Part shown: piece after piece, positions 29,732-62,330 of the stretch
How the letters are laid out: the number at the start of each line of letters is the position of its first letter
Position numbering within the stretch: the first letter of the stretch is position 1
DNA from: Ianthella basta
Lineage: Eukaryota; Porifera; Demospongiae; Verongiida; Ianthellidae
Direction of reading: 5' to 3'
DNA length: 64,000 nt
Assembly (NCBI GenBank): GCA_964019415.1
Contig: OZ025890.1
Span: 5,956,632-6,020,631, forward strand
Program-made: the position numbers and the translations under genes
The notes under the pieces: generated by a model
Databases searched by the model: none
What the model was told of the DNA's origin: nothing
Seen by the model: only the letters and a program-made list of their open reading frames with translations

Positions 29732-32700
29732 ATGGCTATGAGCAGCAAGCAGTTCACCCTTCTAGTGGGGAAAGAGCCCAACTCGCCTCTGGGCATCAAG
29801 GTAGCCCCAATACCTCGCGTGCATATGCCGCAGGAGCAGTGGGCGCGCAGCTCTTACCGGCACTCTCGCTACCTTCTTCCCTCCGCAGCTCAAGACATCC
29901 AAAACTCTCCCCGCCAAATGCAGGGTGGCGGAAGTGTTTCCCTCCAGCGCTGCGGACGTGGCCGGCGTGAGGACGGGCGACCTAGTCCTTCGGGTTGACG
30001 AGCAGGAGACGCGACTGCTGTCCAAAGAGGGAGTGGGCGCCCTTCTGCGGCAGAGTGCCACCAAGGGTCAGGTGTGCCTGACGCTGGTGCGATCGGTCGA
30101 GGGCGTCCCTCAGGATCCGTCAGCATCCAATAACATCGAGGAGGATGCGAGGAATTCGAAGTCAGTCCACTTCGAAGGGACAGGATTGTCTCCTGCGGTC
30201 GTCAGTCCTGTCTGCCCACCCAGGCGGCCGCCGCCTGTCAGCATCGCTAACTACGAAACCGGGCAGAAGTACACCGACTCCCTCTTTGCCAAGGCAGCCG
30301 TGGTGTGTGACCCGTGCATGATAGCCGCACTCAGAACCCCCTTTAAGCACTGCTGCATTTCATGCGCGTTCCCTCTCGCTCTAGATCAACGCCTCTGGTT
30401 GTACTGAGCGGAGGTGCATCGGGTCACAGATGTTACCCAAGAGGCGGGACCTCAAGGTGCCGTATACTCTGGCAGAGAAGAAAGAGAGGGCCAGGGACTT
30501 TCTTCGGCAGTATTACGAGTTTAAAGGGTGAGTGTCATGTGGGTGTGTTGGAGGAGCACTGGGGGAGGCTGTGGTTTGTATCATGCCTTCATTCAGTGAT
30601 AATGGCTCAGAGCACGACGAGCGAGTTGCTGCCGTGATGTCTGAGATTGACAGACGAGGCTCATATGACCTGACTTTCAAGGAACTGAGTTTTGGCTGCC
30701 GCATGGCTTGGCGAAATGCTCCTCGCTGCATGAACCGCATTCAGTGGCGCAAGCTGGTTGTATTTGACCAACGTGATGTGCAGACAGCGGAGGAGATGTT
30801 TGCGGCAATGGTACGTCACATTCGCTTCTGTACCAACCCTGAGAACCCAGGAGTCCTGAGGTGGGTTCTGTGCATGTATCGATCAGCATGCAGCTGGATT
30901 GACAGACACCTGAAGCACAAGGCATGTACGGTTGTCAATGTGTGGGTGTGGTTCTCCTCTTGGCCTCGACAGGTCAGCTATCACTGTCTTCCCTGAAGCT
31001 GTAGATGCAGACCATGAGTACCGAATCTGGAATACACAATTCATCCGCTATGCTGGCTATCGTGTGCCTGATGGGTCTGTTCTGGGTGACCCGGCTACTG
31101 TGGACTTCACTGAGGTTTGCACGGAACTGGGCTGGGAGCCTCCCAAGGAGCGGTCCCCATTTGATGTCCTACCACTAGTGCTGCAGGCCAATGGGGGTAG
31201 CCCGCAGGTGTTTGAGCTGGAGCCAAAGGATGTCTTGGAGGTCTGCCTCACCCACCCCAAGTAAGTGTGGCAGGGGCTAAGACAGGGTTGATGTGACCCA
31301 CGCACTGAGTATTCCTGTCTGTGTGTCAGGTACCCTGAGTTTGACCAGCTCAACTTGAAGTGGTATGCTGTTCCTGGTGTGAGCTGCCTCATGCTGGAGA
31401 TTGGAGGGCTTCGATTCACTGCCGCTCCTTTCAGTGGGTGGTACCTTGTGACTGAGATTGGAGCCAGAGATCTGGGGGACCCCATGCGGTACAACCTGTT
31501 GGAGGTGGGACTGGGGACATTGCTATATGCATCCTTGACACGAAGGAGCATGCGCTCACATGTAGTGGACACTGTCAGTGCATGTGTGGGTACAGAGTTG
31601 TGGCCTTGCTCCTGTGGTACAGAAAATGGCTCACATTATGAAGTTGGATACACGACAGGACCAACTCTGGAAGGACAAGGCCATGGTTGAGCTGAATGCC
31701 GCAGTTCTGCACAGCTTTAATGTGAGTCACTCTGGCTGCTTATGCAACCTGTCTGCCCTGTTGTGTGACACTGGTGCCCTGGTGACTGTCTTGCAGAGCC
31801 AAGGTGTGACCATCCTGGACCACCATACCGGTTCAGAGGCCTTTTTGAGGTTCATGGAGCAAGAGGTAATGTAGGCTGTGCGGTGCAGTGGCCTTGTGTG
31901 AGGACTGTGTCATGGCTGCCCTTGGTGTTTGCAGTACCGTGAGCGAGGTGGCTGTCCAGCTGACTGGGTGTGGATTGTGCCTCCAACTTCCGGTTCTGCC
32001 ACACCTGTGTTCCACCAGGTGCGTTGGGAGTAGGAGCTACTAAATGGTTTGAATACAAGTTGAATGATGTGTACTGTTACTGCCTTCAGGAGATGCTCAT
32101 GTACCACCTGAGCCCCTCCTTTGAGTACCAAAGTGATCCATGGATCAAGTGGCATCAGGCCAAGCAACCTCGTACCACTGGAAGGGGGACTCCCAAAGAG
32201 CGCTTTATTAAAGTTGCAAGGTGCGTAGTTCTGGGGCTGTGTATGTGAAGAGGTGGTGAGTAGCAATGTCAGTAGCAAAGTGTGTGTACTGCTGCAGGTG
32301 GGCTGCTCGACTGAATCGTCTGATGCTGGAGCAGATGAAAAAGCGTCGACATTGCACCATACTGTATGCAACTGAGACAGGACACTCTGAGACATATGCC
32401 AAGATGCTGTTGAAACTCTTTGGGCACGCCTTCAAGTGTGATGTAAGGTCACTAGTGTGCATGGTGTGTGTGCGCAGTGTGTGTATAGTACGTGTATGTG
32501 AAGATGTGCATCCTTGCATGCTTGTTTGTTAACTTGTTTGTCCTTGGATGCCGTAATGATTCATGTAGCTATACTGCATGGACTCGTACCCAATGAGCAA
32601 GCTTGAGGAAGAAGAGTTAGTGCTGGTGGTGACCAGCACCTTTGGCAGTGGGGAGCCACCCAGCAATGGAGAAGAGTTTGCACAGAAACTAGTTAGCATG

Positions 32701-35700
32701 CGTGCTCCAAAGTTTCCAGTGCATCATGGCAGGATCAGTGTTGTGTTGAATTCCTCGTGGGGAGCAGCCAACAAGGAACACACAATGCCCCTGAGTACCA
32801 TCAAGTTAGTGAAAGTAGCATAGTGGGCAGGATCGGACAACAGTGGTCACTTTGTGGCGGTGTAGTATGCGGTTGTTTGTGCATGCTTGGCTGCTTGCTA
32901 ATGATCCGTCTGCACTAACTGTATTCGGTCTTGTAGGTTTGCTGTGTTTGGATTGGGCTCGCGAGCTTACCCCGACACCTTTTGTGCTTTTGCTCACACT
33001 GTGGACAAATTGTTTGATGAGTTGGGCGGGGAGCGGATTTTCTCCTTGGGTGAGGGTGATGAGCTATGTGGGCAGGAAGAGTCATTCCGGGACTGGGCCA
33101 CAAAGTGCTATGAGGTGAGATGGTTGTCACATGCTCAGACACATGTCATGTGCAAGGTCAGCCATCATCACTTGTGCAACTGAGTATTCTATCAACCGAG
33201 TACTCCATGTTGCTGTTGCCATCATTTGGATTGCTGGTGTCCATGATATTGGCATTAATGGAGTACCCCTAGAAGGTGGTCATAGTGTGAACTCCTTTGT
33301 GTTGTGTGCCTGCGTAGCACAGGCTCCAATGTATGGTGCATATGTACATTTGCCTCTAAACTGGAACCCCATTCATTTGTATTCCCAGGCTGCCTGCAAG
33401 TACTACAACCTGGAATTAAATCTCCAAGAAGGGGACAACTTACTGGTGGTCCACAAGTGGGGCAAAAACAAGACTCGTTTGAGAAAGGTTGAACCCAGAC
33501 GTACCCGTATGGATGTGGTGAGCTTTCTGAAGCAGCTCCACAATCGCCCCAATCTCCTGTCAGCCTGTCTTGTGGAGCGGACCGAGCTGCAGGCACAGCA
33601 CTCACTGTGAGCTGCCGCATCCCAAATGTTTTACACTTGTATGGCTGCATGGCCAATTTAGGGATGAGTGTGTATACCAGATTTGTATGTCCTCCGCAAC
33701 CACAGTCGCTCCACTATCAAGCTGTGTTTGGATGTGCGAGGATGCTCTGAGCAGTTCCAACCAGGTGACCACCTTTCGGTGTTTCCTGAGAATAGTGTAC
33801 ACCTCGTGTGCCAGTTGTTGGAGCATGTGGACTTCACTGACATTGGCCCTGATGATCCTGTTATTTTGGAGTTCAACAAGGGTGGTGAGGGAGGCAATGA
33901 GTGGCAGGTGGAGAGACGGTTCTGCCAGGAGATTACGGTGCGTGATGCATTGACTAAGTACTTGGATATCACCACCCCTCCCAGCCCAGAGCTGCTAAAG
34001 CTGCTGGCCATGCAGGCAGCCCGATCTGAGGACCGTCTGGACCTGGAGACACTGGGACAAGGCGAAATGGAGTATGAAGAGTGGAAATACAACTATTACC
34101 CAAACCTAGTGGATGTCATTCACTGGTTTCATTCACTGCATGGACGGATTGACCCGGCATTTCTACTGAGCCAGTTGCCTCTCCTCCAGTCGGTGAGTGC
34201 ATGGCTTTTGAACTGGTTCTGGAACTGGCTAGAGCCATTAAAACTGGGCTCTGAACCATGCAGATGTCAATGTGAATGGGCTAAGTTGGTGGATTGTGGC
34301 AACCATGCAAAGAGGGGGTTAACTAAAGTGTGGTATATACGTTGTATAATCTTTGAGCATGTGCCGTCCTTGCAGCGTTACTATTCCATTTCCTCGTCAC
34401 CTAACTTACATCCTGGTGAGGTGCACCTTACGGTGGCAGTGGTGGAGTACCATGTGAAGCCTATTCCAGGTCACAGCAGTGCAGTACAGCAGCTTAGCAC
34501 ATCCTGGGAGGAGAAGGGAGGAGCAAAGCACTTTGGGGTGTGTTCCAACTGGCTGAAGAAGATTGAGCTAGGGACTGTTGTGCCCTGCTTCTTCAGGAAG
34601 TGAGTGAGCATGAATGAGCTGCAGTTTTGGTTATGTCACTTCATGTATGGTGACAAGCGGTCATGAGGTACATACTGGCTCTTGACAATGCAGGGCAACC
34701 AGCTTCCACATGCCTGCAGACCCAAAGGTGCCCATTATCATGGTAGGACCAGGCACAGGAGTGGCACCCTTCCGCTCATTCTGGGAGGAACGCCTTTTCC
34801 AAATTGAATCCAAGAGGCTAAGTCGGGCACATTTGGCACACCACAACATACGGCAGAAACCTGATGCGAACCCATTGCTACGGACTGCATCTGAGAGGGT
34901 CCTGATGTTTAGTGGGAGCCAGGCCATTCCCTCAGCTCGTGTGACTCTAGGTCCAGGAGGACAGCCAAAACCAGTGGGACTGCAGGAGAAAGGCTCTGCT
35001 ACTGCTGCTCCTATTCAGAGAGGTCGTGCCTTATCAGATGCCAGCAAGCATGGTGAAGTAGTGTCCCAGATAATGTCTACTGTAACAAGTAGCTTTGGTC
35101 CAATGTACCTATTCTTTGGCTGTCGCCAGTCCACAGTGGACCAAATCTACCGAGGTGATGTGATGAGGGCAAAGCTGTGTGGGGCACTTGATGAGTGCTA
35201 TGTAGCACTGTCAAGGGAGCCAGGGAAGCCAAAGGTACATGCATGCATGCAGAGACCATGCATATGCTGTCTTGTTGTAAATGGCATTAGCTGTTGTTGC
35301 CAAGGCAACAAACAGACTGGTAATCCTGAGGTTTAACTGGATGTGAATTGCAGACTATGGCAGTATTACCTCTTGAAATGTTAATTTGCATGAAGTGTTT
35401 GATTGAGCTGTGGTATTGTAGAGCTCCTTCATGTGAGGTTGTTTCTGTAAAGAGCATGAGGAGTCTTTTACTGTAGAAAAAATGTAAATGACGTGTTTGT
35501 AACCCTGCCTGGAACACAAGTATTGGAGCATTGGAGAGTTCCTTCATTATTGGCCTAGTCGGTATTTGGTTTGATTCTCTTTTGCCACGGGTAATGAAGT
35601 GAACCAGTTGCAGCCCACGGAGTGCATGGACAATTACATGCTCTACCTTAAGTTTGTGGGTGGAATGAATAACCGAATAGTCGAATATTCTTTTGGTAGC

Positions 35701-48079: not shown

Positions 48080-49260
48080 GGGCCACTTTGGGAGTGGCCC
48101 AAAAGGCGGCCCATTTTTGGAAACCCTGCAATTTTATCCAAAATGGTAAATCTGCATCAGACATGTTGTTAGGAATCCCCTGGGGTAAAAAAGGAAAATG
48201 GGCCAGTTTGGCCTAAAAGCAATGGGCCAAAGTGGCCCATTTTCTTCTTTTACCCCAAGGGCCTCCCAACATCATGTCTGATGCAGATTTACCATTTGGG
48301 GTTAAATTGCAGGGTTTCCAAAAATGGGCCACCCTTTTGGGCCAAAGTGGCCCATTTTCCTTTTTTACCCCAAGGGCCTCCCAACATCATGTCTGATGCA
48401 GATTTACCATTTGGGGTAAAATTGCAGGGTTTCCAAAAATGGGCCACTCTTTTGGGCCAAAGTGGCCCATTTTCCTTTTTTACCCCAAGGGTCTCCCAAC
48501 AACATGTCTGATGCAGATTTACCATTTGGGGTAAAATTGCAGGGTTTCCAAAAATGGGCCACCCTTTTGGGCCAAAGTGACCCATTTTCCTTTTTTACCC
48601 CAAGGGCCTCCCAACATCATGTCTGATGCAGATTTACCATTTGGGGTTAAATTACAGAGTTTCCAAAAATGGGCCATCCTTTTGGGCCAAAGTGACCCAT
48701 TTTCCTTTTTTACCCCAAGGGCCTCCCAACATCATGTCTGATGCAGATTTACCATTTGGGGTTAAATTACAGAGTTTCCAAAAATGGGCCATCCTTTTGG
48801 GCCAAAGTGGCCCATTTTCCTTTTTTACCCCAAGGGCCTCCCAACATCATGTCTGATGCAGAATTAGCATTTGGGGTTAAATTGCAGGGTTTCCAAAAAT
48901 GGGCCACCCTTTTGGGCCAAAGTGGCCCATTTTCCTTTTTTACCCCAAGGGCCTCCAAACAACATGTCTGATGCAGATTTACCATTTGGGGTTAAATTGC
49001 AGGGTTTCCAAAAATGGGCCACCCTTTTGGGCCAAAGTGACCCATTTTCCTTTTTTACCCCAAGGGCCTCCCAACATCATGTCTGATGCAGAATTACCAT
49101 TTGGGGTAAAATTGCAGGGTTTCCAAAAATGGGCCACCCTTTTGGGCCACTTTGGCCCAAAAAATGGCCCATTTTTTTAAAACCCTGATTTCTACCCAAA
49201 ACGGTAAAAATGCATCAGATGTGTGATTGGGACAACCCTGGAGCAAAAATAAAAAATGGG
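48080..49260. repeat. 115-bp satellite, eight direct copies flanked by inverted copies
   Basis: The anchor taccccaag recurs at 48251, 48366, 48481, 48596, 48711, 48826, 48941 and 49056, a strict 115-bp period. The unit includes gggccaaagtggcccatttt. A divergent unit in opposite orientation lies on each side (48080-48240 and 49150-49260). ORFs of 70-98 codons here are repeat artefacts. Confidence 0.94.
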
Positions 49261-49825: not shown

Positions 49826-49861
49826 AGGGTTAGGGTTAGGGTTAGGGTTAGGGTTAGGGTT
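49826..49861 (+). repeat. Interstitial telomere-like (TTAGGG)6
   Basis: Six uninterrupted agggtt units on the plus strand, the purest telomeric block here apart from 58723-58766. Confidence 0.95.
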
Positions 49862-50597
49862 CTATCTTCAGCGCGGAAGGCGTGCGTTGTAGACTTGTCT
49901 GAGCTCGCTTGTAGTAGACATTGAGGCCTCATGTGCCCTGAAACGTCGCTGTAGACTCGCCACAGTCCTTTTATGCTGCAATTCCACGTATTGTATGCAC
50001 AGCAAGCATTCTATGCTAGCCTTAGCTCTCTAGAAATGACCATGGAGGCCTCCTGTCCCTAGAAACGGCGCTGTAGACTCGCCGTAGACCTTTCTGCTAA
50101 GGTGCAGTTGGGGTATAGTCAGAATCAGGCGCCATGGACGCGCTTTAGCCCTATGAAACATAGCATATCTGCGTAGGAATGCACTTATGGCCCACCATCA
50201 AGTCCTCTTGTGCCTACAGTACGTTTTGCCCGATAGGTTTGGTTGTACGGAAATCATTTACATATGTGTTGTCTTGTGCACATGCAGCCAAAGAGCCACA
50301 GCCTTAGCGTCGGTCATAGGTGAGTCTCCCCCAGCACGCACTACGTAGTGACTATGTACATGTGTAGTAGTTAGGTGTTGTGTGGCGTTAGACCAGCTGC
50401 TCCTCAGTGACAATTTAGGTCCCAAATTTGCTACCTAGTCTCTATTCTATGCCGTCGTTCTATTGCGCATAATTGGGTGCCATCGTGAAGTTAGGTGTCG
50501 TGGATGGATCGCTACACATGCTTACCGTCATGATTACAAATTGCTAATGCAACAGGTACAGTCGTTGATAGTGGGTGATAGCAAATTTTAAACAGAG
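49862..50597. other. Intergenic, short duplicated segment
   Basis: An approximately 60-bp segment (tgaggcctcatgtgccctg to the gctgtagactcgcc motif) near 49920 recurs in diverged form near 50045. No gene was recognised before the minus-strand stop at 50598. Confidence 0.5.
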
Positions 50598-53500
50598 TCA
50601 TGTAAGTGGGTGTTTGTGTAGGTGAATTTCTGTTGGGGTGGATAGGAGTTGATAGGTGTTCTCTGTGGCTTTGTACTGGAAATCTACGGGATATACCCAC
50701 TGATCCACAGTGGCTTTCCGTATATCCCCGAGTTTGCAGTGGTATCTGTTACCTCCAACGTGGTTGAGTGGCAAATACCTGAGCGTCGTCTTGGCTTTGT
50801 CAATCCGCATGACTTTGCCCACGTCAACTTTTGGCTTCACTGCGGTGGAGTCTGGCAGCACGATTGCGACAATGTCTCCTAGATCAGGTCCTTCGTTGTC
50901 ACTGTCACTGTCGCTGTCAGTTGGTGGCTCTCTGGTGGATGGCCCGGCCGAGTCCTCAGTGGTGGTGGTTGCCGAGGACAGGGCCTTCTCAAGTAGGCCT
51001 CCGGTGTACTTCCTGCCCTTCTTTTCCCTGTCCACCTGTGTGCGTCTGTCGTAATGCTCTTTTTGCTGCATATTCACGAGTGGATAGGGATTCACGTTAA
51101 AGTTGGTAGGCATAGGTTCATGGGTGGACATATGTTTGTGCATGCTGGTTGCAATGGAGTGAGTAGGGTTTGAATGCACATGTCAGTGCTTGCTCACCGC
51201 TCGCCTGCTGTGCCGCATGGCTGTGGCCATAGACTCCTTTTCTGCTTCTGAAAGGTTTGACTTCTCACAGTGGGTAACGAAAATGGATCTCAGCAAAGTG
51301 GGGCCAATCTTTTTCGCAATGTGGCGTTCAAAGATTCCCTCAATGTAGGCAGTCCACGAACTGGCACTGTATGGTGCTCCCCTATCGTTCTGTACCAAAG
51401 AAAGAATTGAGTTAGAGAACGACAACTGCACTGTGATGGTGATAGCGGTGATTCCGGTGGTGGTGTATACATGCATAGGTGTACCATATATATAGTTATA
51501 TGTATGTCTTGTACTCACTAAGAAGAGGGCAGTGGTCTGTTGTCCTGCTCCCAGCAGGACCTCCCTGTGGTGACTTAGGTGTATCACAAGGTGACTCAAT
51601 AGCTGACTGTCATCGTCCAGGGGGAGGAAGTGGTCCCCGTAACTCTTGTGAGTCTTGTAATCGGCCAATAGAAGGTAGGCTTGCCTGCCATCCGTAGTGA
51701 TGTAGAGGCAGTTTGGCCTCGCTTGGTCCACCACTGGCATAGGTAGTTTGTCGTGGATGGCCACGTGTAACGTTTGGAACTCCTTTGCACGGCCAGGTGG
51801 GAGGGCGGTGTAGAAGAGCATGGCCAGTAGTTTCTGAGACTCCTGGGCCTTTATGCGGGGGCGGGTTGCTCCTTCAAAGAGACCCTTCTGCTCTTTGACT
51901 GCGGCCAGAATGTCATCCCTGCATAGAGAAGGGAGGAGGGTAGGGGAGGGTGGCATGGACGCCGTGGAGTAGGTATATGTAAGGCTTTGAGTTGCTCCAA
52001 TGCAAGTCTTTGGTATAGCTTTGACACTTAGCCCACCACTGAAAGTTGTCAAATCCCCCTCAGACTCACCATTCGGCCCACTTCTGCTGTGCTTGCAATG
52101 CTTGCCAGCTTCGGCATGCTGTAGAGGAGACGACCTGCCTACGGCACTGCTCCCCGAGTCTGCCCACGTTTATGTAGTGCTCCTGCTCGCTGTACTCCTT
52201 TCCATCCTTTATGTAGAGGTAGCGTAGGCCATACCTCAGGTTTTCGAGGTATCGTGAAATGGTGATGCCCTGGAGAGGCTTTTCTTTCAGGGTTAACACG
52301 AACCCCTCAATCATTTCAGCGTCCAAGAGGCACTCAAGGGCGGGGCTGGTCTGCTGTTCTTCTTTTACGTATGCAAAGAAGACTAAGTGTGTGCAAGGGA
52401 AAGGGATTAGCGGGTGAGGGGGTCTCAATTGTACGGTGTGTAGACAGACATGATGTGTGATCTACGTACGTAGTGTGGAGCCTGTGGCATAGTCTGTGTG
52501 CGTGGGGATGGGTGGGTAACAAGTGGCAGGTACACTGACTTACGTAGATGGTGCAGCTGTACTCTCTCCCATGTGATTGATGCAATGGGGTCCCGGCCCC
52601 TCTGTAGGCTGACCGGGTCCGTGAAAAAGCACCTCATTTTGTCCATTTTCTCGCGTAGTGCCTCATGCTCTGGAGCATGGATATCGAGGTAGCTCCTCGT
52701 GCGTCCTCCTTTATTGGAGGCAGTCCCTTGATGCCGTCGTTTGGCTGGTGGCTGGTAGTCGCTACCACCATCACTGTCACTGCTGCGTAAGAGAGAAGCC
52801 GCATATGTAATGCATTTATGCCGCCAATTCACTTGTATGTATGTATGTATGTATGTATGGCTATGAAATTTCTGTTGCAATGTAAACAGTGTGAGGGAGG
52901 TGGGCATGCAGTGTTTCTCTTAAGATGGATGGGTTGGTGTGTGTGAGACCTTGTTGGGGTGGATTGGTGTGTTGTGGCCGTCTCAGTGGGTGGGTGTTCT
53001 GTCCCGGTCTCCGTGGGTGGGTGTTCTGTCCCGGTCTCCGTGGGTGGGTGTTCTGTCCCGGTCTCAGTGGGTGGGTGTTCTGTCCCGGTCTCAGTGGGTG
53101 GGTGTTCTGTCCCGGTCTCAGTGGGTGGGTGTTCTGTCCCGGTCTCAGTGGGCGAGTGCTCTGTGGACGCCTTGGTGGGTGGGTTCTCGGTGGCCATCTC
53201 AGTGGGTTGGTGCTCCGTGGCCGTCTCTGTGGGTGGGTGCTCGGTCCCAGTATCAATGGGTTGGTGCTCCGTGGGCACTTCAGTGGGCGGGTGCTCTGTC
53301 CCCGTCTCGGTGGAGAGGGGGCGAGTCTCGGTAGGCTGGAGCTCTGTGCCAGTCTCAGCGGGGTAGGGCTGTTGGTGAGCCTCAGTGGGGTGGGGAAGGG
53401 TCTCAGGGGTGTGGAGTTGTGGGGGAGTCTCTGTGGGGTGCTCATGGATGGATGCACCTCCTTGTCTGCCTGTGGGAAGGTAGGTATAGGTAGGTAGGTA

Positions 53501-53860
53501 GATGGCTTGGTACTGAAGGTATCAGTGATTACTACTTTGGTAGGTAGGTAGGTAGGTAGGTAGATGGCTTGGTACTGAAGGTATCAGTGATTGCTACTTT
53601 GGTAGGTAGGTAGGTAGGTAGGTAGGTAGGTAGGTAGGTAGGTAGGTAGGTAGGTAGGTAGGTATATTAGGTAGGTACGTACGTACGTACATAGGTGGCT
53701 TGGTATTGAAGGTATCAGTGATTGAAACTGTTAGGGATTAAGGTTAGCCGGCCATTGTGGTGTTGTAGGGACTGCTCATACCTCTTTGTGAGCCCTGTGC
53801 CGCCAGGGCAAAAGCCGATTTCCACAGAAGTTTCCAAAAGAGGTCCTCTTCGCCCGCCAT
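50598..53860 (-). CDS. Tyrosine recombinase (Crypton-like), seven exons, intact
   Basis: Seven minus-strand exons join in phase to give 736 aa: 53860-53782, 53469-52950, 52782-52544, 52382-52070, 51918-51519, 51389-51198, 51065-50598. Order: a short N-terminal segment (MAGEEDLFWKLLWKSAFALA); a threonine/proline linker with nine-residue repeats (TETGTEHPP); an acidic stretch SDSDGGSDY; a helical core-binding-like domain (SYLDIHAPEHEALREKMDKM, then ISRYLENLRYGLRYLY); and a tyrosine-recombinase catalytic domain. Candidate catalytic residues are Arg in LPPGRAKEF, Lys in DYKTHKSYGD, Arg in TLLRSIFVTH, His in MRHSRRA and Tyr in KEHYDRR, the last supplied by exon 7. The usual His of the HxxR box is Thr here. 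A C-terminal domain (GDIVAIVLPDSTAV, then VYPVDF) is unfamiliar. Family placement is inference; it may be a transposon gene or a domesticated one. A truncated paralogue lies at 58791-60634. Confidence 0.82.
52978..53300 (-). repeat. 27-bp coding repeat in the recombinase linker
   Basis: About six near-perfect and several diverged 27-bp units encode TETGTEHPP within exon 2 of the recombinase gene. On the plus strand the unit reads tgggtgggtgttctgtcccg followed by gtctcag. Confidence 0.9.
53480..53700. repeat. (GGTA)n microsatellite with a duplicated flank in recombinase intron 1
   Basis: Three GGTA tracts are separated by copies of ggcttggtactgaaggtatc, so a segment of about 70 bp has been duplicated together with the microsatellite. 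Confidence 0.92.
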
Positions 53861-54320
53861 TGTCAACTTGCGCTTCTTTCTCTTTGGACTAATGCACTGG
53901 CTGTATGGGCGCCTCCTTTTGTGGGCTAGCCTAGACCCCGCCCACAAAATGGTCCCATCTGCATTCCTGGTTGCGACCACAACAACACAACAAACAGCTC
54001 CACTGTTGCGACCACAAATCACAACAAACAGCTCCACTGAGCAAATAACAAACTGATTAATTCCTGGCCTAATGTCCCCCAGGTTGGGCGATGTCATTGC
54101 GTTGTCCCTCCCACAAGATGGCCCCTTGTACGTGCATGCCCTTTGCCATGCATGCCTGTGGTGGGTCGGTGGTGGGTTAGGAATTTAGTTGTTTTTCATT
54201 CGAATCACACTGATTCCAGCTTACAAATGACAATACAAATAGTGGTTAAGCGTTCCTGTGTGTTTCTCCTATAGCCAAATTATTATGGTGCTCCTTATTT
54301 ATTTATTTATTTATATGAAT
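53861..54320. other. Upstream region of the recombinase gene
   Basis: About 460 bp between the recombinase start and the ribozyme array. It contains a short direct repeat (gctccactg near 53997 and 54030) and the sequence gggactaattt-like tail before (TTTA)n at 54297-54313. No gene is seen; the recombinase promoter should lie here. Confidence 0.45.
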
Positions 54321-54328
54321 TTGCTTGA

Positions 54329-54398
54329 GCAAGCACTGCACTGATGAGCCCCAGAAGGGCGAAACGGCTTCACTATTGAAGCCGTCTGCAGTTATTGC
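54329..54398 (+). ncRNA. Hammerhead ribozyme, type I, copy 1
   Basis: Core CTGATGA (54341-54347), stem II GCCC/GGGC, GAAA (54361-54364), stem III CGGCTTCA/TGAAGCCG with loop CTAT, then T and C, with predicted cleavage after C54386. Stem I pairs ACTGCA (54335-54340) with TGCAGT (54387-54392) and resumes as GCAA/TTGC beyond a 2x2 internal loop. All invariant core bases are present. Confidence 0.95.
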
Positions 54399-54478
54399 AT
54401 TGTGTGCGTGTATGTGTGGGTGGGTAGGTGTGGGCGGGTGCTCCAGCGGCGAGTGCGTGTGACTGTGAATTTGCTTGA

Positions 54479-54548
54479 GCAAGCACTGCACTGATGAGCC
54501 CCAGAAGGGCGAAACGGCTTCACTATTGAAGCCGTCTGCAGTTTTTGC
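54479..54548 (+). ncRNA. Hammerhead ribozyme, type I, copy 2
   Basis: Identical core and stems to copy 1, with predicted cleavage after C54536. The stem I internal loop is GC opposite TT instead of TA. Confidence 0.95.
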
Positions 54549-54628
54549 ATTGTGTGCGTGTATGTGTGGGTGGGTAGGTGTGGGCGGGTGCTCCAGCGGC
54601 GAGTGCGTGTGACTGTGAATTTGCTTGA

Positions 54629-54698
54629 GCAAGCACTGCACTGATGAGCCCCAGAAGGGCGAAACGGCTTCACTATTGAAGCCGTCTGCAGTTTTTGC
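54629..54698 (+). ncRNA. Hammerhead ribozyme, type I, copy 3
   Basis: Same sequence as copy 2, with predicted cleavage after C54686. The following spacer differs from the earlier ones by single bases (taggtgtggg; ccagtggc). Confidence 0.95.
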
Positions 54699-54778
54699 AT
54701 TGTGTGCGTGTAGGTGTGGGTGGGTAGGTGTGGGCGGGTGCTCCAGTGGCGAGTGCGTGTGACTGTGAATTTGCTTGA

Positions 54779-54833
54779 GCAAGCACTGCACTGATGAGCC
54801 CCAGAAGGGCGAAACGGCTTCACTATTGAAGCC
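54779..54833 (+). ncRNA. Hammerhead ribozyme copy 4, truncated
   Basis: The core, stem II and the 5' side of stem III are intact, but the copy breaks off after gaagcc at 54833. The cleavage triplet and the 3' strand of stem I are missing, so it cannot fold alone. A 20-bp minisatellite follows at once. Confidence 0.9.
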
Positions 54834-55197
54834 CTAATCTTGCCACATCTTGCCTCATCTTGCTATTTCTTGCCTCATCTTTGCAATATCTTGCCTCATC
54901 TTGCTATATCTTGCCTCATCTTGCCTCATCTTGCTTTATCTTGCTATATCTTGCCTCATCTTGCTATTTCTTGCCTCATCTTGCAATATCTTGACTCATC
55001 TTGCTATTTCTTGCCTCATCTGGCCTCATCTTGCTTAATCTTGCTATATCTTGCCTCGTCTTGCCTCATCTTGCTATTTCTTTCCTCATCTTGCAATATC
55101 TTGACTCATTTTGCCTCATTTGCCTCATCTTGCTTAATCTTGCTATATCTTGCCTCATCTTACCTAATCTTGCCACATCTTGCCTCATCTTGCTTGT
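54834..55197. repeat. Minisatellite (tcttgcctcatcttgctat-like) interrupting the ribozyme array
   Basis: About 18 copies of a 10/20-bp unit mixing atcttgcctc, atcttgctat and atcttgcaat. It begins inside stem III of ribozyme copy 4 and ends just before copy 5. Confidence 0.93.
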
Positions 55198-55227
55198 GCG
55201 TGTGACTGTGCATGCGTGTGACTGTGA

Positions 55228-55302
55228 ATTGGCTTGAGCACTGCACTGATGAGCCCCAGAAGGGCGAAACGGCTTCATTATTGAAGCCGTCTGCAGTTAC
55301 AG
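55228..55302 (+). ncRNA. Hammerhead ribozyme, type I, copy 5
   Basis: Core CTGATGA (55246-55252), GAAA, stem III CGGCTTCA/TGAAGCCG with loop TTAT, and predicted cleavage after C55291. Stem I pairs ACTGCA (55240-55245) with TGCAGT (55292-55297). The upstream stretch gtgtgactgtgaatt matches the end of the 150-bp unit. Confidence 0.93.
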
Positions 55303-55350
55303 CATTGTTTGCATGTATGTGTGGGTGGGTGGGTAGGTGTGGGCAAGAGT

Positions 55351-55973
55351 GAATGCATGCATGACTGCATACCAAGGCCATCAAGTATCAACTGCATGCA
55401 TGTGCATGTTCTCCACTTGCCTTATGACCACCTTCGGCCATATTGCATGCAAGATAAAATTATTATTATGATAGTGCGCGTGTGGTTGCGTATATGCTAT
55501 GTAAGGTGGCCTCGCATTGCTGCCAGCACGAGCCTTTGCAGACAAGGGAGCACCAGCATGTCGGAAGGGTAGAGGCAAGTGCCAGGAGTGTGGCCACTCC
55601 GCCAGATGACCTCCCCCTGGAGTGTAATGCGAACGAACGCCTCGTAACGATGACCTCGTCGTATGGGCGCCGTCAAATCGTCATCAAAACCGTCAAAACA
55701 CACAAAAAATAAGAGACAACTATCACACACGACTGCTAATCTAACCCCGAAGCCCTGTTCAAACCGCTGTCGGCGAGCTAGAGCCCTAACGCCCGATTTT
55801 CAGCCTGGACACGGGTCCAGGACAGAATGGGAGCGAAAACCGACATCACCGACGACAGATCTGCTGTTGAACCATCCAGACGCGCACAGAACACTGGAAA
55901 ACACACACGCATACCCACGCCTGGAAAACACACACGCATACCCACGCCCGACTCTTTTTTAAGACTGCCGCGA
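55351..55973. other. No recognised gene; short direct repeat
   Basis: A 76-codon plus-strand ORF at 55482-55712 and a 77-codon minus-strand ORF over the same bases resemble nothing I know. A 24-bp direct repeat around acacacgcatacccacgcc occurs at about 55897 and 55926. Confidence 0.45.
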
Positions 55974-56822
55974 CATGGGTGCAGCACCCATGTGACCCTT
56001 GACCCCGCTATACCTTATGTACAGGGACAAGGCAGACAGCCTTGTGCTGCACGGCGATGAAGCAGCCCAAGCGCCTAAACATCACACACCAAGACTGATC
56101 TCCTATGGCTATCCAATGAAGCTAATTTCGTGCAGAAGCCTTTCTGCGTTTACCGGGCAGGCGACGCCGATTTTGCAGAAGACGGGGGCTGCAGCCATTT
56201 ATGCGATTGCGCAATCCGGGAGCTGCAACAAAATACTATTCGACCGAGCAGCGCTTTTCCAAAGGTATGCAGCAAGCCGTATGTGCATAACATTAAATAT
56301 TACTGGTGAACACTCTCCTGTCCACCAGAGTCATGTGCTGTTGAATGTGAATGTGCATGTGCAAGCAAATATGCCGTGTTCAGTTTAATATATGGTAATA
56401 ATATATAGTATTATCCCTATCCTTTTTAATTTGTGCAGTGCTGCATTGGACCATGTGGTGTCCTAGTACCTATGGGTACGGTGCACTTAAATATTTATTG
56501 ATATTGATATTTATTGATATGCAAGCTACATTAATTACTCAAGCTGTTATATTAGATCAATTGCACTAATCAACAGGGACTCCTGCAGCTCATGCAAATA
56601 CCTCAGGTTAATATAGACCATTAGTGCAACAAATAATTAAATGATTTAAAGGGTTACACCAATTGCAAGAAGGTGCAGTGCGGTTGTGTGCATGCAATGA
56701 ATGGTGCAAGTCTCAATTAAATGTGTTCTATGACTCTCTTTGCTTCTCCATCACGTAGGACAATAAAACGGTTCCAGTCAGCTGCAGACCTGCAGATAAT
56801 GTCGGAGAGAGCTACAATACTA

Positions 56823-57118
<296 letters not shown>

Positions 57119-57129
57119 CACACACTCGC

Positions 57130-58265
57130 TCACAGACTGACTCGCTGACTCACTCACTCACGTGTGCAACATACCACACTTATACTCACGGATACAGTGC
57201 CTTTGCATTAGCAGTCCCTAACTGGATGGTTGTAATCGGTATGAGTAATCGATAATCGAGCTAGCGACTCTTTATGGCAGCTACAAGTCTAGTTCAAGCA
57301 GTGACAATGGGAACTAGGAAGAATGGCTAAAGCTCTCAACAGAACGACATCACTAGCTTGACTATCAGTTACCAATAGCTGATTTCAACCATTCAGTCAG
57401 GACAACCGGCCCTACTGTACACATACATTCACACACAATAGCTATACCTCGCTCAAGTGTGTGATGCCTATGTGACATCTCCTACACGCATACCCATATA
57501 TATGTATGTATGCACGTATGTATTGTATGTATGTAAGTATGCGCCATTTTAACATTGGTTTGGAAGTTGGAATTTGATCAAGAAGATGGCCGTCTCATCT
57601 CCTAGGCCAGGGTGAGCTCGTCGGTTTGCTCGCTGAAGCCCACCCTGCGAGCAACTAGGGACGCTATCAAGCTTCGAGGGAGTCACGGTGAGTCTGCGAT
57701 CGGCGTGCGTGCGTGTTGGGTGATACTAAGCTTCATCTGTGGCCTGATTGCTGCTAGGACTCCACCCCCTTGGAGACCTTTAGCTCTATTTTTCTTTACT
57801 GTTACATGCTGATCGTCGAGCTATACGTCCAATGCGTTTCTAGTAGTCTGCAAGTCATGCTCGACCAAATTGGACTGGATTGAAGCTTCGCGTGTGGACC
57901 ATGTTTGCGGGATCGTCGCACGCTGAGCCTATAGAATTGAGTCGTTCCTTGGTGGTGATGACATCTCAGATGTTGGTAGATGTTATATTCGTCGTCGTTG
58001 TTGAGATAGAATCGAGTCGCGCTGTACTGCAGTCGCTCAAACTTCGCCTTCTTTCAGCCAGCTCAGCATTTTCCAAGTATTAATTTATATGGGTTAGGTG
58101 GGCAGAAGCAGCATTAAGCTGCGTATTGTCTTGAATTTCTGCAAGTGCCGAGAGATCATTGCTAGCAATCTCTCTGAGCGGTGACGACGTTTCACAATTT
58201 ACCGTCGATGTGCAGGATGTCGACAAAGTTGCTGATTTTGCCCCTCCCCCCAATGCTTAAGGATG
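57130..58265. other. No recognised gene
   Basis: Interior of the inverted-repeat element after the second CA tract. Short ORFs (57612-57812, 57880-58083) and an ATG at 57587 followed by a stop after nine codons show no supported coding pattern. Confidence 0.45.
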
Positions 58266-58591
58266 GAGGGTCAAAGTTCGCATGGGTGCTGCACCCATGC
58301 TATCTTTAATACATTGCGTGACGTCACAGCCCAGGGGGCGGTGCTAAGGCACACGTGCTTAATTACCAAGACGACGAAGAAAATGGCCTCCGAGAAGCTG
58401 GTGCACGCTGCGTTTTTTTTTCCTGGCGCTCTGGAGGGTTTCCCAGGCATCGTGTCTTCGCTAAAGTAAGTGTGTACGCGCGCGCATGTTATGCTTTAGC
58501 GTGTAATGTTAGGGTTTGGTGGGTTAGGCGCTTTTCTCAAAGGGTTGTAGATAGTTTGGGGTTGCTGAACACGGGATAGCAAAGGGTCACG

Positions 58592-58766
58592 TTAGGGTTA
58601 GGGTTAGGATCAAGGGGTAGATAAAGGTTCAACACGGGTAAAGGTTTAACTAAAGGTTCCACAGTGGTAAAGGTTCAGCTAAAGATTCTCGATGGATGAA
58701 GGTTTGGCAAGCACGACCACAAGGTTAGGGTTAGGGTTAGGGTTAGGGTTAGGGTTAGGGTTAGGG
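58592..58766 (+). repeat. Interstitial telomere-like blocks next to the truncated recombinase
   Basis: A short ttaggg run at 58592-58607 and seven pure ttaggg units at 58723-58766. The second block ends 24 bp from the last exon of the truncated recombinase copy, inside what would be its next intron. Confidence 0.94.
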
Positions 58767-58790
58767 AGTGAAACGTTGACAGTTACTCAC

Positions 58791-60634
58791 CATTCAATCC
58801 ACTTGTTCTTTGCCTCCAGAGCTTGCCAGCTCTGCTGAGCTGTCGAATGCGCAGTTTGCTTGCGGAACTTTTCCCGCAGCCTGGCCAGAGTGATGTAAAG
58901 TTCCTCCTGCTTGTAGTTCTTAATGTGATCTTTGCAGTAGAGGTAGCGTAGGCCGTATTGGAGGTGGTCCACGTACTGGGCTATGGTGCTGCCTAGTATC
59001 CCTTTCTTCACTAGAGACTGGACAAACTGTTGGATCATCTCTTCACTCCTCAGACAGTCTAGTGTTGGTGTCTTGCCCAGGGTGTCTTTAACATAGGCCA
59101 GGAACACTGGAGGTGGACAGGCAGATGGGCATCAGTGAGCACCCACCCTAAGTTCTATCTGACAGTCATGATTCCCATTACAACAACTCCACGGCAAGGC
59201 ATTGTTAATTAAGAGTCAAGTATAATTACTGACAAATGAAAATCATTGCAGCCACACCCTCTCCCCATATGGAGGTGACTCACACAGAATGTGGAGGGAG
59301 ACCTTGTTCCATGTCACGAGACTGATGGCATCGCCCTCCCTCCGCAGACTGACAGGATCCACGTAGAAGCTTCTCATCTGCTCCATCCGACTCTCTAGGG
59401 CCGGGTACTGATGGACGTTCAGGTAGTTCCTTGCCCGTCCCCCCTTGTCTCGCCGCGGCATCTTAGGTGCTGGCTCATAGTCGTCGTCATCACTGTCTGA
59501 GGAGGGGCAGGGGGGAGAGGGCGAGTGTGTTGGTGGGCTAACTGGATCCAGTCTCGGTGGGTTAACTGGGTCCTGTCTTGCTGGGCTAACTGGATCCAGT
59601 CTCGGTGGGTTAACTGGGTCCTGTGTTGGTGGGCTAACTGGATCCTGTCTTGGTGGGTTAACTGGATCCTGTCTTGGTGGGATAGCTGGATCCAGTCTTG
59701 GTGGGTTAACTGGATCCTGTGTTGGTGGGCTAGCTGGATCCAGTCTCTGCGGGTTAACTGGATCCTGTGTTGGTGGGCTAGCTGGATCCAGTCTTTGCGG
59801 GTTAACTGGATCCTGTGTTGGTGGGATAGCTGGATCCTGCCTTGGTGGGCCAACTGGATCCTGTCTTAGTGGGCTGTCTGGATCCTGTCTGATTGGGTTA
59901 ACTGGATCCTGTGTTAGTGGGATAGCTGGATCCAGTCTTGGTGGGTTAACTGGATCCTGTCTTGGTGGGCTATCTGGATCCTGTCTTATTGTGTTAACTG
60001 GATCCTGTGTTGGTGGGCCAACTGGATCCTGTCTTGGTGGGATAGCTGGCTCCAGTGTTGGTGGGTTAACTGGATCCAGTGTTGGTGGGTTAACTGGATC
60101 CAGTGTTGGTGGGTTAACTGGATCCCGTCTTGGTGGGCTATCCGGTTCCTGTCTTGGTGGGACAGCTGGATCCTGTGTTGGTGGGCTATCCGGCTCCTGT
60201 CTTGGTGGGACAGCTGGATCCTGTGTTGGTGGGTTAGCTGGATCCTGTCCTGGTGGGATAACTGGCTCCGGTGTTGGTAGGATGGCAGTAGAGGCAACAC
60301 CTATTAGATGGATAGCAGTTTTGTAGTGAGTACCGCCGGCATGTGAATGATTGGTAGTGCAGTTGTCATGCCACCAACACTAGATCCAGTTAACCCAGTC
60401 AGCAAGCTGTCAAGAACTTTGTGAGGCATGGTTGGATTACCATTTACCTTTGGAGTGTTCTGCTGAGCTTTCTTCTGCATCCTTGCTCTGCTGTCTGCCA
60501 GGAGGACCTCCCTGTGCCCTGGTGGCTAAAGCAAAAGCAGCCCTCAACACCAGCTGCATCATTTCCTCTGGAGACTGGGCGTTGGACATGGTTGCCTTTG
60601 TCCTGGGTCTTAGACATGGATGTAGCACCTCCAC
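58791..60634 (-). pseudogene. Truncated paralogue of the tyrosine recombinase
   Basis: Three minus-strand exons (60634-60448, 60300-59284, 59106-58791) match the first four exons of the gene at 50598-53860, in the same order and with the same intron phases. Seen: exon 1 with VLRAAFALATRAQ (against KSAFALAAQ); a proline linker of 24-bp repeats (QDPVNPPR type) in place of TETGTEHPP; SDSDDDDYEPAPK; NYLNVHQYPALESRMEQMRS; and IAQYVDHLQYGLRYLY ending KNKWIEW. The linker and core segment are fused into one exon here. Nothing like the catalytic exons is found downstream; the sequence runs into TTAGGG repeats. No stop codon was noticed in the surviving exons, so recent loss or an unseen distant 3' part remains possible. 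Confidence 0.8.
59540..60290 (-). repeat. 24-bp coding repeat in the truncated recombinase linker
   Basis: About 31 units of 24 bp encode variants of QDPVNPPR/LDPASPPT on the minus strand. The plus-strand unit is ttaactggatcctgtcttgg plus tggg. Variation is concentrated at a few positions. Confidence 0.92.
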
Positions 60635-60779
60635 TTGCAGCCCCTTTTATAGCTGGGCCCTTGCCCCTCCCACAAGATGGCCCCTGCATGCCATGCTAGC
60701 CTTTGATGTCTGTGCCTGCAAGTGTGTGCCCTATCCACAGGCACCATATAAGGTTAGGGAAAGTGTCAACATATAGGTA

Positions 60780-61103
<324 letters not shown>

Positions 61104-61178
61104 CAGGGTACACTGCACTGATGAGACCCAAACAGGTCGAAACTATGGCATACTCATGCCATAGTCTGCAGTTCCCTG
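61104..61178 (+). ncRNA. Hammerhead ribozyme, type I, solitary copy
   Basis: Stem I ACTGCA (61112-61117), core CTGATGA (61118-61124), stem II GACC/GGTC, GAAA (61139-61142), stem III CTATGGCAT/ATGCCATAG with loop ACTC, then T and C, with cleavage expected after C61166, and TGCAGT (61167-61172). An outer CAGGG/CCCTG pair (61104-61108 with 61174-61178) extends stem I past an internal loop. Stem sequences differ from the array copies while pairing is kept. Confidence 0.94.
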
Positions 61179-61455
61179 CAATTGATGCCATATTTGAGCT
61201 TGGCGATTGTGCTTGTGCTTGTCTGATGCATTTGTGTGTGTGTGTGTGCGTGTGTGTGTGCACCTGTGAGTGTGTGTGCATGTCTCAGCGGTCTCTGTTC
61301 TCCTCATGCAGGATGCAAGATGTTCACCGAAGACCGTAGCCGTACACAATTGACACTGAGATGGGCCCTGAAGAGGCTCACCTTAATCCTCCCCAAGGGA
61401 GTGATAAGGTGGCGGGTGTGCGTTCACCGCGCAAGATGCATGCATCCAAGACATG

Positions 61456-62330
61456 CATCCATCATGCATGGAGTGATCCCTCTGGGCATGTGGGATGCAT
61501 GTGTCATGACATTGCACATGAGCCCATGTGTCCTCATGCATCATGCACATGGATCATGCCATGCACGTAGGGACATATTGGGGGTATATAGATGTAGATA
61601 CAGATGGGTGACGATCCCCTAAAACTCACCACCCCCTCACTCCTCGTGCATCCATCATGCATGGAGTGATCCCTCTGGGCATGTGGGATGCATGTGTCAT
61701 GACATTGCACATGAGCCCATGTGTCCTCATGCATCATGCACATGGATCATGCCATGCACGTAGGGACATATTGGGGGTATATAGATGTAGATACAGATGG
61801 GTGACAATCCCCTAAAACTCACCACCCCCTCACTCCTCGTGCATCCATCATGCATGGAGTGATCCCTCTGGGCATGTGGGATGCATGTGTCATGACATTG
61901 CACATGAGCCCATGTGTCCTCATGCATCATGCACATGGATCATGCCATGCACGTAGGGACATATTGGGGGTATGTAGATGTAGATACAGATGGGTGACGA
62001 TCCCCTAAAACTCACCACCCCCTCACTCCTCGTGCATCCATCATGCATGGAGTGATCCCTCTGGGCATGTGGGATGCATGTGTCATGACATTGCACATGA
62101 GCCCATGTGTCCTCATGCATCATGCACATGGATCATGCCATGCACGTAGGGACATATTGGGGGTATATAGATGTAGATACAGATGGGTGACAATCCCCTA
62201 AAACTCACCACCCCCTCTCTCCTCATGCACCCATCATGCACAAATGGATCCCTCTGGGCATGTGGGATGCATGTGTCATGACGTTGCACATGACCCATGC
62301 GTCATTGGGCGTAAATGGGCTGCAAATCTG
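61456..62330. repeat. 193-bp tandem satellite, about 4.5 copies
   Basis: The anchor catccatcatgcatggagtg recurs at 61456, 61649, 61842 and 62035, with a diverged fifth copy at about 62228. Copies are almost identical. Repeated 69-codon minus-strand ORFs are the same repeat seen in one frame. Confidence 0.95.

Follow-up and report, generated by a model that had tools for sequence, protein, structure and literature searches.

A tandem array of type I hammerhead ribozymes in a telomere-inserted element encoding a putative tyrosine recombinase in Ianthella basta

The window, i.e. the whole 64,000-nucleotide stretch of Ianthella basta DNA analysed here, covers 5.96–6.02 Mb of a 6.05-Mb contig in a genome of 209 Mb and 96 contigs. 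It contains an 8865-bp telomere-inserted element, designated unit a (49860..58724), both ends of which abut TTAGGG, and a fragment of a diverged second element, unit b (58767..61760), with its left side broken by TTAGGG repeats and its right edge approximate. Unit a holds a 150-bp monomer array on the plus strand (54316..54833) and a putative tyrosine recombinase gene, YR-a, on the minus strand (50598..52782), with exons at 52782–52544, 52382–52070, 51918–51519, 51389–51198 and 51065–50598. Early exons of a diverged putative recombinase gene, YR-b, were located in unit b on the minus strand (59104–58790) by tblastn, with 50% identity over 105 aa.

The array was delimited by Tandem Repeats Finder (period 150, 3.5 copies, 99% matches), in agreement with the sequence-only reading, which had placed a 150-bp tandem array at 54321..54833. 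The structural scan located in it three complete hammerheads, A1 (54335..54392), A2 (54485..54542) and A3 (54635..54692), identical across their 58 bases, and a fourth, A4 (54785..54833), broken in the 3' arm of stem III, all on the plus strand, so that the earlier count of three complete and one truncated type I hammerheads was borne out. Three complete hammerheads were added to those of the array: A5 (55240..55297, plus strand) and B (56914..56990, minus strand) in unit a, and C (61105..61181, plus strand) within the span of the unit b fragment. All invariant bases of the type I core, CUGANGA ... GAA A ... UH, are present between three stems in the complete array copies, with a stem I of 6 bp (ACTGCA/TGCAGT), a stem II of 4 bp with a CAGAA loop and a stem III of 9 bp in the fold; the full core and the paired stems reported from the letters alone therefore hold for A1 to A3. 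Both the internal loop of stem I and loop II are present. By its sequence, this is a type I hammerhead array. Cleavage is predicted directly 3' of GTC at 54386, 54536 and 54686 (54386/54387, 54536/54537 and 54686/54687), and at 55291/55292 in A5; if A1, A2, A3 and A5 are all cut, the predicted products between these sites are two 150-nt pieces and one 605-nt piece. The minimum-free-energy fold is the hammerhead in all six complete copies (z between -2.8 and -4.6; -3.3, -3.7, -3.7 and -2.8 for A1, A2, A3 and A5, respectively), whereas the hammerhead was not recovered as the minimum-free-energy fold of the truncated A4 (z -1.3). A minisatellite with a 10-bp unit, (CCTCATCTTG)n, occupies window positions 54833–55193 and starts exactly at the breakpoint of A4; the distance from this minisatellite region to A5 varies among units.

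The core pattern had 12 matches in the window, 7 of them of the hammerhead type (six complete and one truncated), and shuffled sequences gave 2.7 ± 1.8. In the 209-Mb genome, the stricter pattern TGCACTGANGAN{9,16}GAAAC had 505 matches versus 1 for the reversed pattern, used as control. The occurrence of the hammerhead array exceeds chance. The expectation of the sequence-only reading that an Rfam covariance model, RF00163 in particular, would recognise the array did not hold, as no Rfam family reached its gathering score in the window; taken literally, this is an outcome that the reading had named as refuting it. The best sub-threshold rows for the array were RF02275 (Hammerhead_HH9, 29.4 bits with a cut-off of 52) and RF03152 (RAGATH-1, 31.1 bits with a cut-off of 56.3); these families have the same core as the array, yet all the matches are far below the family cut-offs. 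RF00163 was absent from the listed sub-threshold rows, which omit lower-scoring rows of the same clan. The HH9 consensus has an inner stem I CUGCA/UGCAG and an A-rich loop II, as in hammerheads of kinds B and C. The remaining rows obtained at lax thresholds were mostly microRNA models, many of them on CA/TG or palindromic repeats.

Since no Rfam model reached threshold, we trained a covariance model, R1, on six sequences, all of kinds B and C, leaving out the array kind, A. R1 found the four complete copies of kind A in the window (A1, A2, A3 and A5) at 44.7–45.8 bits (E 8e-12 to 2e-11), its scores for hammerheads B and C being given by construction, as these are training members. It also scored 49.6 bits on a fourth hammerhead kind, D, from contig C74. 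Two array copies elsewhere had lower scores: one with changed bases (L045, 39.9 bits) and one at a contig edge (L042, 37.4 bits). Covariation was scored for 32 matches (23 distinct sequences) in an alignment that was fitted to the hammerhead structure: 98.0% of the cells were paired, two-sided changes occurred in 16 of 23 stem pairs (105 cells), and the covariation score was 0.507, compared with a mean of 0.164 for shuffled alignments and at most 0.072 for slid structures. Because the dispersed members were selected by the core pattern, inner stem I provides no independent test, and stems II and III are the better covariation evidence.

The left end of unit a is TTCTATC, preceded by TTAGGG, and the right end is CACAAGG, followed by TTAGGG. 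In the fetched loci with exact end motifs, TTAGGG abuts every left end (18 of 18) and every right end (17 of 17), and all insertions are in one register, equivalent to GGG^TTA. Units occur in tandem clusters, nine of the 18 left ends being unit-to-unit junctions with a single common TTAGGG. Further copies lie on the contig of the window, C23, where two units in tandem, followed by the beginning of a third, occur closer to the contig end; these distal units are 98.4% identical to unit a of the window and 99.96% identical to each other. On contig C2, the stretch between a unit and the contig start consists of 755 bp of telomere repeats. Since the sense strand of the array is the TTAGGG strand, an array RNA would run in the same sense as telomere-ward transcripts. 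A 115-bp tandem repeat with a TGGGCCAAAGTGGCCCA palindrome (window positions 48223–49149) precedes, by about 0.7 kb, the TTAGGG stretch with which the left end of unit a is in contact.

The YR-a exons are separated by four GT-AG introns of 129–161 bp, and the spliced frame is open for 536 residues, with the gene start not included. By eye, it shows what we take to be the layout of a tyrosine recombinase, with R (PPGRAKEF), K (DYKTHK), R (LLRSIFVTH), H (MRHS) and Y (EHYDRR). Pfam gave a weak match of the spliced protein to a SAM-like integrase domain (Phage_int_SAM_5, E 0.17) and none to a Crypton or integrase catalytic domain. PDB sequence searches with the recombinase returned chance rows only, protein searches yielded 14 relatives in one case and 13 in another, all without names, and AlphaFold, run on the main exon with 15 sequences, gave no usable model (pLDDT 35.8). 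The main exon has at least 123 matches in the genome; among those listed, 42 span the entire 328-residue query, 39 of them free of stops, and 36 more are the diverged YR-b, with 62–64% identity over at least 240 residues. These features suggest that unit a encodes a putative tyrosine recombinase. In six-frame Pfam scans of unit a (49845–58732), no reverse transcriptase domain was found, nor the combination of reverse transcriptase and RNase H expected of an element like the trypanosomatid TATE; the only row was DUF3622, with an E value of 0.058, below the cut-off. Over this 8.9-kb element, to which the scan was limited, the result agrees with the sequence-only reading, which had seen no reverse transcriptase in the window. 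Since the recombinase also went unrecognised, the reach of such scans is limited and a diverged reverse transcriptase could be missed.

Along contig C67, hammerhead C and YR-b occur seven times each, 2.60 kb from one another and on opposite strands, and successive hammerhead C/YR-b copies are 7.6–7.95 kb apart. The B region of unit a and the C region of unit b are homologous, in opposite orientations. We considered that the hammerhead might be a position-conserved part of the recombinase elements, but this is weakened, as the counterpart in unit a of kind C of unit b is kind B, inverted, and not kind A. Because B and C are the same module inverted, the hammerhead module relocates, actively or passively, separately from the recombinase element, and descent alone does not make hammerheads a fixed component of such elements. 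Adjoining the unit b fragment, a tandem pair of 3.8 kb (100% identity over 3798 bp) extends from window position 61760 into L031.

In animals, hammerheads have been described in retrozymes, Penelope-type retroelements and Terminons. The sequence-only reading had called the array retrozyme-like, a description that stands for the type I hammerheads in tandem 150-bp monomers but not for independent spread. The exact 30-base core of kind A has 247 matches in the genome and a 35-base core has 253 when up to 3 mismatches are allowed; there is therefore no large cloud of decayed kind A copies. The 100 of the 247 core matches that were listed form 24 clusters, 22 with three to five cores and two single. 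All 22 multi-copy clusters lie in a unit a-type element: 21 have a YR-a exon on the opposite strand at a distance of 2.4–3.5 kb, and the remaining one, L045, matches the unit a element over 5 kb. Tandem copies were not found as separate dispersed insertions among these 22 clusters, and the single copy L054 has element flanks on either side, with a deletion. The copy number of the array differs by whole 150-bp steps at one place in the element, as would result from DNA-level duplication and exchange within an element that is itself copied, and not from independent insertion at scattered sites, which marks a retrozyme. Across 57 full monomers from the fetched loci, variation is seen at 2 of the 60 ribozyme sites and at 9 of the 90 spacer sites; this low variation may reflect recent copying instead of selection.

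In metazoan non-LTR retrozymes, as described in the available parts of the reports, a type I hammerhead lies in tandem repeats of 150–450 bp (Cervera and de la Pena 2020, PMC7229834), and the GC content of animal retrozymes is below 45% or below 50% (PMC7229834, PMC7761336). Compared with these descriptions, the Ianthella array has the same ribozyme type and a monomer size within the range, but it is fixed in a telomere element, is GC-rich (56%) and has no dispersed arrays among the listed places. A metazoan retrozyme would imply that a 150-nt RNA is excised, circularised, reverse-transcribed by the enzyme of another element and returned to the genome as a tandem; the copy in unit a would stem from one such event and have hitch-hiked afterwards. 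Such a course would suit the monomer size, the finding of hammerhead modules in differing contexts and a genome rich in reverse transcriptases (3653 first-look RVT_1 candidates, with all 150 of those scored above the cut-off). We nevertheless consider it unlikely in view of the confinement of the 22 listed clusters to one place in one element, the GC content of the monomer, its unremarkable fold as a whole (no better than shuffled sequences, z -0.66) and the scarcity of decayed copies. Judged from these sequences, spread of the array as its own retrozyme is not supported. Since hammerhead modules occur in varied contexts and orientations, the first array copy may have had a retrozyme origin, and at the RNA level the array should, by analogy, work like a retrozyme array.

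Up to 247 of the 505 pattern matches are of kind A, and the rest are of other kinds. Kinds B and C add more copies at chromosome ends, and 80 of 100 listed pattern places are outside the A/B clusters, most of them deep within contigs C1–C3. R1 matched all nine small loci retrieved around such places, L051 to L059, at 25–66 bits; among these, L054 is the kind A single copy and L052 and L053 are the two ends of one region. Among these 80 places outside the A/B clusters, opposite-strand neighbours no more than 1.8 kb apart (0.4–1.8 kb) were convergent in five of five cases, two of these pairs being copies of one element (the L051 family), and two opposite-strand neighbours at 2.0–2.3 kb, in one duplicated cluster, were divergent. 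A rule of convergent orientation is tentative, the numbers being too small for a firm claim. L051 (C1:2375200–2376050) is part of a repeat of at least 850 bp that has four full-length copies in the genome (90–100%) and contains two different convergent hammerheads. At either end, two regions of approximately 7.25 kb (C3:1037707–1044987 and C2:8352637–8359917) carry one and the same hammerhead core, facing inward; in the C3 region the flanks at both ends agree, resembling an element with long terminal inverted repeats. Genome searches with L056 and L057 gave matches that often stop at the ribozyme edges. L057 and L058 have a downstream flank in common (z 7.0) but not an upstream flank (z 1.8), so that longer, diverged elements with a hammerhead on the 5' side fit as well as stand-alone elements of 66–81 bp.

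Several known elements share parts of this arrangement. The trypanosomatid element TATE, classed in the available part of its description as a tyrosine recombinase retroelement, occurs in tandem clusters that share one insertion position, GGG^TTA, within the telomere hexamer (PMC6681497). Unit a resembles TATE in insertion register and in tandem clustering, and perhaps in its enzyme, the tyrosine recombinase being putative here; it may be regarded as TATE-like in target, but it differs from this retroelement in that no reverse transcriptase was found. The word "hammerhead" is absent from the main text of the TATE paper (PMC6681497). Endogenous nimaviruses of crustaceans have telomere-specific tyrosine recombinases (PMC10871703); according to the passages available, these and unit a, likened here by description only, both tie a tyrosine recombinase (putative in the latter) to telomere-repeat insertion in an animal, whereas nimaviruses, unlike unit a, are large DNA viruses. 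The passages on nimavirus recombinases in that paper do not mention ribozymes (PMC10871703). Cryptons, as presented in the part of the paper available (PMC3212892), are likewise DNA elements the recognised enzyme of which is a tyrosine recombinase (putative in unit a), but the Pfam Crypton/integrase catalytic domain was not matched by YR-a; neither TTAGGG nor "hammerhead" occurs in the main text of the Crypton paper (PMC3212892). Among the open-access papers searched, judged by titles and the starts of abstracts and with most subscription papers outside the set, none was found to report hammerheads in a telomere-bounded putative tyrosine recombinase element. In Ianthella, hammerheads are present in such an element, in which no reverse transcriptase was detected, as well as at many other places in the genome.

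The reading we prefer, with a probability of roughly two in three, is that a type I hammerhead module, duplicated in tandem, forms the array and lies in an 8.9-kb mobile element that is inserted in TTAGGG repeats at GGG^TTA and encodes a putative tyrosine recombinase. It is proposed that i) the array would be copied along with the element, through recombinase-mediated insertion of a circle or exchange between chromosome ends, ii) its copy number would shift through unequal exchange at the DNA level, iii) when the telomere-ward, UUAGGG-bearing strand is transcribed, A1, A2, A3 and A5 would each cut themselves, releasing two 150-nt RNAs and one 605-nt RNA and leaving a new downstream 5' end, and iv) hammerhead B would act likewise on read-through RNA from the opposite strand. 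Long read-through transcripts of tandem units would probably be severed as a result. The sequences establish the anatomy of the ribozymes, their covariation, the element ends and how the copies are distributed; from these features we infer recombinase activity, transcription, cleavage and its effect. The array makes it possible to test whether ribozymes cut telomere-ward transcripts.

Three further explanations were weighed against this duplicated module in a telomere-inserted element. A telomere-targeted recombinase element might cut the transcripts of its tandem copies once per unit on both strands, through array A and hammerhead B, in a viroid-like manner; perhaps, after closure, the unit-length RNA would be copied into DNA by a reverse transcriptase acting in trans and put back at TTAGGG by the recombinase. 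Short elements with inward-pointing hammerhead ends would exist in addition. We regard this more elaborate cycle as distinctly improbable. It is very improbable that the array is a relic satellite, with neither transcript nor function, in which the motif was kept merely by very recent copying of subtelomeric units: the 98.4–99.96% identity of the units and the retention of the truncated fourth copy as such in other units would agree with this, but compensatory changes between hammerhead kinds preserve stem pairing, and the core is kept in four kinds at telomere ends and in the fetched dispersed kinds, the latter having been found by that core. We give hardly any credence to a Terminon-like or other Penelope-type retroelement with hammerheads serving telomere attachment since, although hammerheads, a telomere location with telomere repeats, head-to-tail arrays and telomere-truncated copies are all described for the Terminons of bdelloid rotifers in the available part of that report (PMC6431247), no reverse transcriptase domain was found in the six frames of unit a by Pfam, the ribozymes lie at least 1.7 kb from the element ends (the nearest at 1734 bp) and not beside telomere repeats, and their stems are full, compared with the minimal ones described for Penelope-type elements and Terminons in the part of the source available (PMC7761336).

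Arrays of telomere-type elements were also seen 220–300 kb inside long contigs (C4:218000–299000; C3:13106000–13145000; C8:8406000–8432000). On C4, two sets of elements face each other, with YR on the minus and then on the plus strand, resembling two joined chromosome ends, as if by a fusion or an assembly join. The introns, the TTAGGG ends and a nitric oxide synthase domain indicate an animal genome: elsewhere in the window, positions 30532–35336 contain pieces of a nitric oxide synthase gene, of which 30532–30996 matched Pfam NO_synthase (E 6e-29) and the rest was recognised by eye.
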